Source: Acidimicrobiaceae bacterium (lineage in GTDB: Bacteria > Actinomycetota > Acidimicrobiia > Acidimicrobiales > Poriferisodalaceae). From it: a DNA stretch of 64,000 nucleotides. The notes under the pieces were generated by a model. That model saw only the letters and a list, made by a program, of their open reading frames with translations, did not search any database and was not told where the DNA came from. Both the position numbers and the translations under genes were made by a program. This document shows, piece after piece, positions 28,748 to 55,434 of the stretch. The first letter of the stretch is position 1. Each line of letters opens with the position of its first letter. The stretch covers positions 62,001 to 126,000 of the forward strand of contig JAPOPC010000034.1 in assembly GCA_026713105.1 (NCBI GenBank). The letters are read 5' to 3'.

Positions 28748-28777
28748 TTGACACGAACTGATGTTCGGAACTACATT
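28748..28777 (+). promoter_or_regulatory. recA distal promoter with LexA box in the spacer
   Basis: -35 TTGACA (28748-28753), an 18-nt spacer, -10 TACATT (28772-28777). Within the spacer, at 28754-28767, lies CGAAC-TGAT-GTTCG, a perfect match to the Gram-positive/actinobacterial SOS box CGAAC-N4-GTTCG. LexA bound here would block the promoter. It lies 210-240 nt before the recA ATG. Confidence 0.85.
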
Positions 28778-28906
28778 GCTGTTATTCGAAGCGGCCGTCG
28801 CGCCAGCGCAGAGCGCAGGGGCGGCGGCTGCCAGTGCAGCGGCGTGCGGCGCACCGAGCGTTGCCGCGGTCCGCAGGAGATCAACCGGCAGAAAATCACC
28901 CGAGAG

Positions 28907-28929
28907 TTGTCACACCCCGCTTCTACGGT
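28907..28929 (+). promoter_or_regulatory. recA proximal promoter, RecA-NDp (PafBC-type) element
   Basis: TTGTCACAC (28907-28915), 8 nt, TACGGT (28924-28929). This fits the mycobacterial LexA-independent damage promoter consensus tTGTCRgtg-N8-TAnnnT at every capital position. It lies 57 nt before the recA start. The same element, GTGTCACAC-N8-TACCGT, occurs at 55412. Confidence 0.75.
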
Positions 28930-28986
28930 GCCCCTAGACGGCATCGCACGCTGGGTGCGGCCGAACGGGAGTCCGAGGAGGACGAC

Positions 28987-30078
<1,092 letters not shown>

Positions 30079-55411: not shown

Positions 55412-55434
55412 GTGTCACACCGGCCCTCTACCGT
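55412..55434 (+). promoter_or_regulatory. RecA-NDp (PafBC-type) promoter of the HAD gene
   Basis: GTGTCACAC (55412-55420), 8 nt, TACCGT (55429-55434), then 7 nt to the ATG. Spacing and the TGTCACAC string are the same as at the recA proximal promoter, fitting tTGTCRgtg-N8-TAnnnT. The -10 distance indicates a leaderless message. Confidence 0.65.

Follow-up and report, generated by a model that had tools for sequence, protein, structure and literature searches.

The window analysed here, a 64,000-nucleotide stretch of a 3.96-Mb draft genome (117 contigs, 94% complete), carries on its forward strand a recA gene (28987..30078, ATG at 28987, 363 amino acids) with a ribosome-binding site, GAGGAGG (28975..28981, forward strand), read from the sequence 5 nt upstream of the start codon. 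The nearest named recA loci all belong to the Acidimicrobiia (an Acidimicrobiaceae MAG at 85% and Aquihabitans at 79%). A divergent enoyl-CoA hydratase-like gene starts at about 28571, and two promoter-like elements lie on the forward strand between that gene and recA. The distal, P2-like promoter (28748..28777) consists of TTGACA (28748-28753), an 18-nt spacer and TACATT (28772-28777), with a predicted start at about 28784, and its spacer opens with a perfect LexA (SOS) box, CGAACTGATGTTCG (CGAAC-TGAT-GTTCG, 28754..28767). An earlier note on this DNA had described this promoter and the box in its spacer, and re-reading of the coordinates bore it out to the base. The proximal, P1-like promoter (TTGTCACACCCC-N5-TACGGT, 28907..28929) reads TTGTCACACCCCGCTTCTACGGT in full and is made up of TTGTCACAC (28907-28915), an 8-nt spacer and the -10 hexamer TACGGT (28924-28929), with a predicted start at about 28936-28937. 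Between the two lies a GC-rich spacer of about 93 bp (28787..28879, forward strand); an Rfam search of the stretch between the promoters gave no match and its RNA folding is unremarkable (z -1.07), so that a structured 5' leader was rejected. A search of plasmid records with the recA upstream region also gave no match.

The distal promoter, with 10 of 12 letters matched, is the only sigma-70-like site between 28500 and 29100, where 0.1 would be expected, and the palindromic CGAAC-N4-GTTCG that overlaps it is the SOS box of actinobacteria, placed inside a promoter as there and with no difference at recA. A single exact box lies in the window (0.11 expected) and six lie in the whole genome, compared to five for a reversed-pattern control; by itself the box therefore proves nothing, and it was rejected as a genome-wide marker, being useless without promoter context. 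What is special about the box at recA is its place in the sole sigma-70-like promoter of the stretch together with its conservation. Upstream of lexA itself, many relatives in the class have one or two perfect LexA boxes, and the boxes of this genus at that position are weak (L018:6705-6738; CGAACAAATGCGCG and CGAACACTTGTTGC; two mismatches).

The proximal element agrees with the mycobacterial RecA-NDp consensus (tTGTCRgtg-N8-TAnnnT, lower case marking weaker positions) at six of six positions in TTGTCR and three of three in TAnnnT, which follows TTGTCR at 11 nt, and departs from it in the GTG part, where it has CAC instead; it is thus a variant. Among the recA upstream regions of Acidimicrobiia the motif takes the form TGTCACACCCC-N5-TA(C/G)G(G/T)T, extending to CACCCC. 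The proximal element is an exact match to the class form TGTNACACC-N7-TANNNT, of which there are two in the window and none in 100 shuffles. If one mismatch is allowed, the relaxed pattern of mycobacteria stands at chance level within the window and was rejected, and only the class form is specific. The chance-level result would suit the reading that only the LexA promoter functions and the second element arose by chance, which is scarcely credible given that the element recurs in 70 of 109 relatives compared to 0.47 in shuffled sequences and is preserved in a second genome of the same genus (G224). The RecA-NDp-like element proposed in the earlier note therefore stands as a site, to the base, and falls as the mycobacterial motif letter for letter. 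We read it as a class-specific version of the RecA-NDp/PafBC promoter, in which, judging by its letters and their conservation, TGTCACACCCC-N5-TANGNT would replace TTGTCRGTG-N8-TAnnnT. The other exact element of the window, TGTCACACCGGCCCTCTACCGT (55413..55434, forward strand), lies 7 nt before the ATG (55442) of a HAD-like gene, which is a possible candidate for a further member of the regulon.

The decisive evidence for both elements is comparative. Across 109 recA upstream regions of class Acidimicrobiia, drawn from 41 families, the exact LexA box is present in 91 (0.03 in shuffles) and exact TGTCR-N11-TAnnnT, on the sense strand, in the 70 noted above, with a single match on the opposite strand. 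Each of the two is carried by at least one genome in 34 of the 41 families, and of the 60 regions with exact copies of both, all 60 have the second nearer to recA (median distance 65). In G224 the distal block is identical at every base, the proximal block differs by one change, in its spacer, and the alignment shows that the intervening segment of about 93 bp is missing; the absence of this segment with both blocks nearly unchanged indicates that the blocks are maintained as separate units. At the recA genes of Streptomyces, Cellulomonas, Nocardioides and Tetrasphaera a LexA box or near-box precedes TTGTCRGTG-N8-TAnnnT (canonical or with one mismatch), and since the canonical motif of these Actinomycetes holds the same position, the canonical and class forms are variants at one place. 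A natural experiment is provided by one relative (G151; L206), a single draft genome in which lexA was undetected and the recA LexA box is absent, and which has retained PafC and exact TGTCR-N11-TAnnnT. Conservation, order and spacing were thus observed directly in these genomes, and they show the two-promoter arrangement to be general for the class and not special to this genome.

Both regulators named in the earlier note are encoded elsewhere in the genome, as it had supposed, and its suggestion that the SOS and LexA-independent responses both reach this lineage is supported at the sequence level, by lexA, pafB-pafC and class-wide conservation, for the whole class rather than one genome. The genome search, in which absence of the genes would have spoken against the idea, found a single, full-length copy of lexA on contig C71 (207.6 bits) with both LexA domains, and the Ala-Gly cleavage site, the GDSM serine and the VK lysine expected of a cleavable LexA are visible in its sequence. 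Exactly two WYL genes are present, side by side on contig C58, and these are pafB-like and pafC-like. The pafC-like protein has an HTH_PafC domain (49.6 bits) and, among solved structures, matches chains of PafBC (E 7.9e-21) and of PafC (E 5.9e-20), and the pafB-like protein aligns with class PafB proteins, retaining the invariant FERDK...LG helix. A single-sequence search of PafB against the PDB was unsuccessful; a seven-member PafB profile that includes the protein itself matches Mycobacterium smegmatis PafB at E 1.6e-42. Both partners of a RecA-NDp system, pafB and pafC, are thus encoded in this genome. The pair adjoins xanthine-dehydrogenase-type genes, and the Pup ligase/Dop-type genes are on contig C12, so that in this 117-contig draft the operon with pafA that marks the mycobacterial pafBC locus was not found.

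Nearly all genomes of the class have PafBC, either as a fused protein or as two separate ones. Absence of PafC was rejected as a natural experiment, since the f5/g12 genomes without a PafC match carry a fused two-WYL protein; in family f5, PafB and PafC form one such protein of approximately 640-740 amino acids (L285, L286, L282 and L284; G063, G093, G108 and G099). The tiny 1-Mb genomes of family f27 have a shrunken WYL pair alongside a degenerate element, which fits a link between PafBC and the element and does not prove it.

A match to TGTNACACCCC-N5-TANNNT with at most one mismatch occurs 31 times in this genome, compared to one match for the reversed-pattern control; of the two motifs that the earlier note proposed to scan genome-wide, the second element therefore gave a signal and the LexA box did not. 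Among 59 genomes of the order, exact TGTCACACCCC-N5-TANGNT has 90 matches in 37 genomes compared to none for the control. The 73 downstream proteins that were scanned include RecA (13), DUF222 (7), UvrD/PcrA-type helicases (5), DNA methylases (5), RmuC (2) and YifB (2), with UvrB, Lhr-type helicases, a RadA-like protein, a calcineurin-type phosphoesterase and a UPF0102 (YraN) protein each confirmed singly; an addB-like gene also stands behind the motif in the order. In this genome one exact site stands before an addAB-like pair, made up of a gene for a 1123-amino-acid PD-(D/E)XK nuclease and, behind it, one for a UvrD helicase that also has a nuclease domain. HNH or DUF222-HNH genes lie downstream of about eight sites, exact or near. 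The genes downstream of the motif are, as observed, rich in DNA repair functions, as in RecA-NDp promoters, and the regulon predicted from them resembles the PafBC regulon of mycobacteria, which includes recA, uvrA and others (PMC8223512).

An ATG or GTG that opens a long frame lies 6-8 nt after the -10 in 35 of 83 exact sites, where about four would be expected, and at this distance the start codon is probably the first transcribed base. This marks TAnGnT as a real leaderless -10 and places TGTC near -29 to -26, like the -26 motif of PafBC (PMC11804915). The recA leader, of about 50 nt with its GAGGAGG site, is unlike these leaderless genes behind the same element. Leaderless starts are common in actinobacteria, and the element also precedes genes that have no known repair role (the HAD-like gene of the window, a TIR protein and a VWA protein), as would be expected if it were an ordinary constitutive -10 promoter of the leaderless type that favours a certain motif upstream and is under no damage control; the repair-rich list of matches, the 90 exact sites against none in the control, and the canonical RecA-NDp in the same position at Actinomycete recA together make this very improbable. 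Control of the proximal element by some damage activator other than PafBC (ClgR, a different WYL protein or one that acts on the TGTNACA half-palindrome) deserves somewhat more weight and is still unlikely. In its favour, ClgR is reported, in work cited in PMC5656591, to recognise mycobacterial recA P1, and position 5 of the motif is variable in this genome (C, G or A), which leaves TGTNACA. Against it, the fixed distance to the -10, the TGTC core, the position at recA and the repair-gene regulon are all as in PafBC promoters, and in a regulator search that covered the WYL and LexA families the only WYL genes of the genome are the pafB-pafC pair.

Our data therefore argue that recA very probably has two damage-responsive promoters, of which LexA controls the distal and PafBC the proximal one. 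LexA bound to the spacer box would hold off the distal sigma-70-type promoter until RecA-ssDNA triggers its self-cleavage and the promoter is released. In mycobacteria, PafBC activated by ssDNA joins RNAP-SigA at a PafBC-specific -26 motif, replacing the -35 contact (PMC11804915). The PafBC of this lineage would likewise be switched on by ssDNA at its WYL domains, read the TGTCACACCCC motif at about -26 of a proximal promoter that has no -35 box, and, by sigma adaptation, enable the housekeeping RNA polymerase to start from the TACGGT -10. Binding of LexA and PafBC at these sites, and the response of both promoters to damage, are predicted by homology; for PafBC we infer binding from position, spacing and regulon, since the GTG part is replaced by CACCCC.

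The principle of this arrangement is already known. The mycobacterial recA gene also has a distal LexA-controlled promoter (P2) and a proximal LexA-independent one (P1), both upstream of recA (PMC5656591), and the dual arrangement that the earlier note had likened to it matches in order and type. The two differ in the proximal motif (TGTCACACCCC-N5-TACGGT here, tTGTCRgtg-N8-TAnnnT there), in the approximately 130 nt between the promoters here, and in pafBC lying away from pafA. With the RecA-NDp/PafBC promoters of Actinobacteria the proximal element shares the TTGTCR core, the 11 nt to TAnnnT, the missing -35 box and a repair regulon including recA, whereas the class consensus is extended to CACCCC, many targets are leaderless and tandem copies occur at DUF222/HNH genes. 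What is new is the class-specific form of the motif, the extent of the regulon and the spread over Acidimicrobiia; a literature search, with subscription journals outside its coverage, returned no paper naming both Acidimicrobiia and PafBC. The two-pathway damage response of mycobacteria would thereby be extended to a little-studied class outside the Actinomycetes, the precise motif would make the regulon readable from any Acidimicrobiia genome, and the class form offers a testable case of PafB and its promoter motif changing together. More speculatively, the rewired -26 motif TGTCACACCCC may define a PafBC regulon that joins repair genes to multicopy, tandem-promoter DUF222/HNH genes and to certain anti-phage genes (TIR, type I-G CRISPR, DUF4007), a reading that we consider doubtful; if true, phage defence and mobile nuclease genes would be induced by DNA damage along with repair.

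Several individual sites of the motif in this genome (G000) deserve mention. At HNH and DUF222-HNH genes on contigs C50, C51 and C101 (L258/L277, L260/L261 and L265/L281) the elements are in tandem, approximately 100-111 bp apart, and an ATG stands 7 nt behind each copy, as though a duplication had copied the promoter together with the gene start. Another tandem pair, 89 bp apart (L253/L254; C24:178975-179085), precedes a gene whose protein has an HNH-like end and no Pfam match. Imperfect elements lie upstream of a DUF4007 gene adjoining a cysteine-desulfurase-like gene (L015/L026; C42:53056) and of a Cas_GSU0053 (csb1, type I-G CRISPR) gene (L270/L378; C29:10755). The gene for a DUF1883-TIR protein (L259; C50:23822), possibly a defence gene under damage control, has an exact element 6 nt before its ATG.
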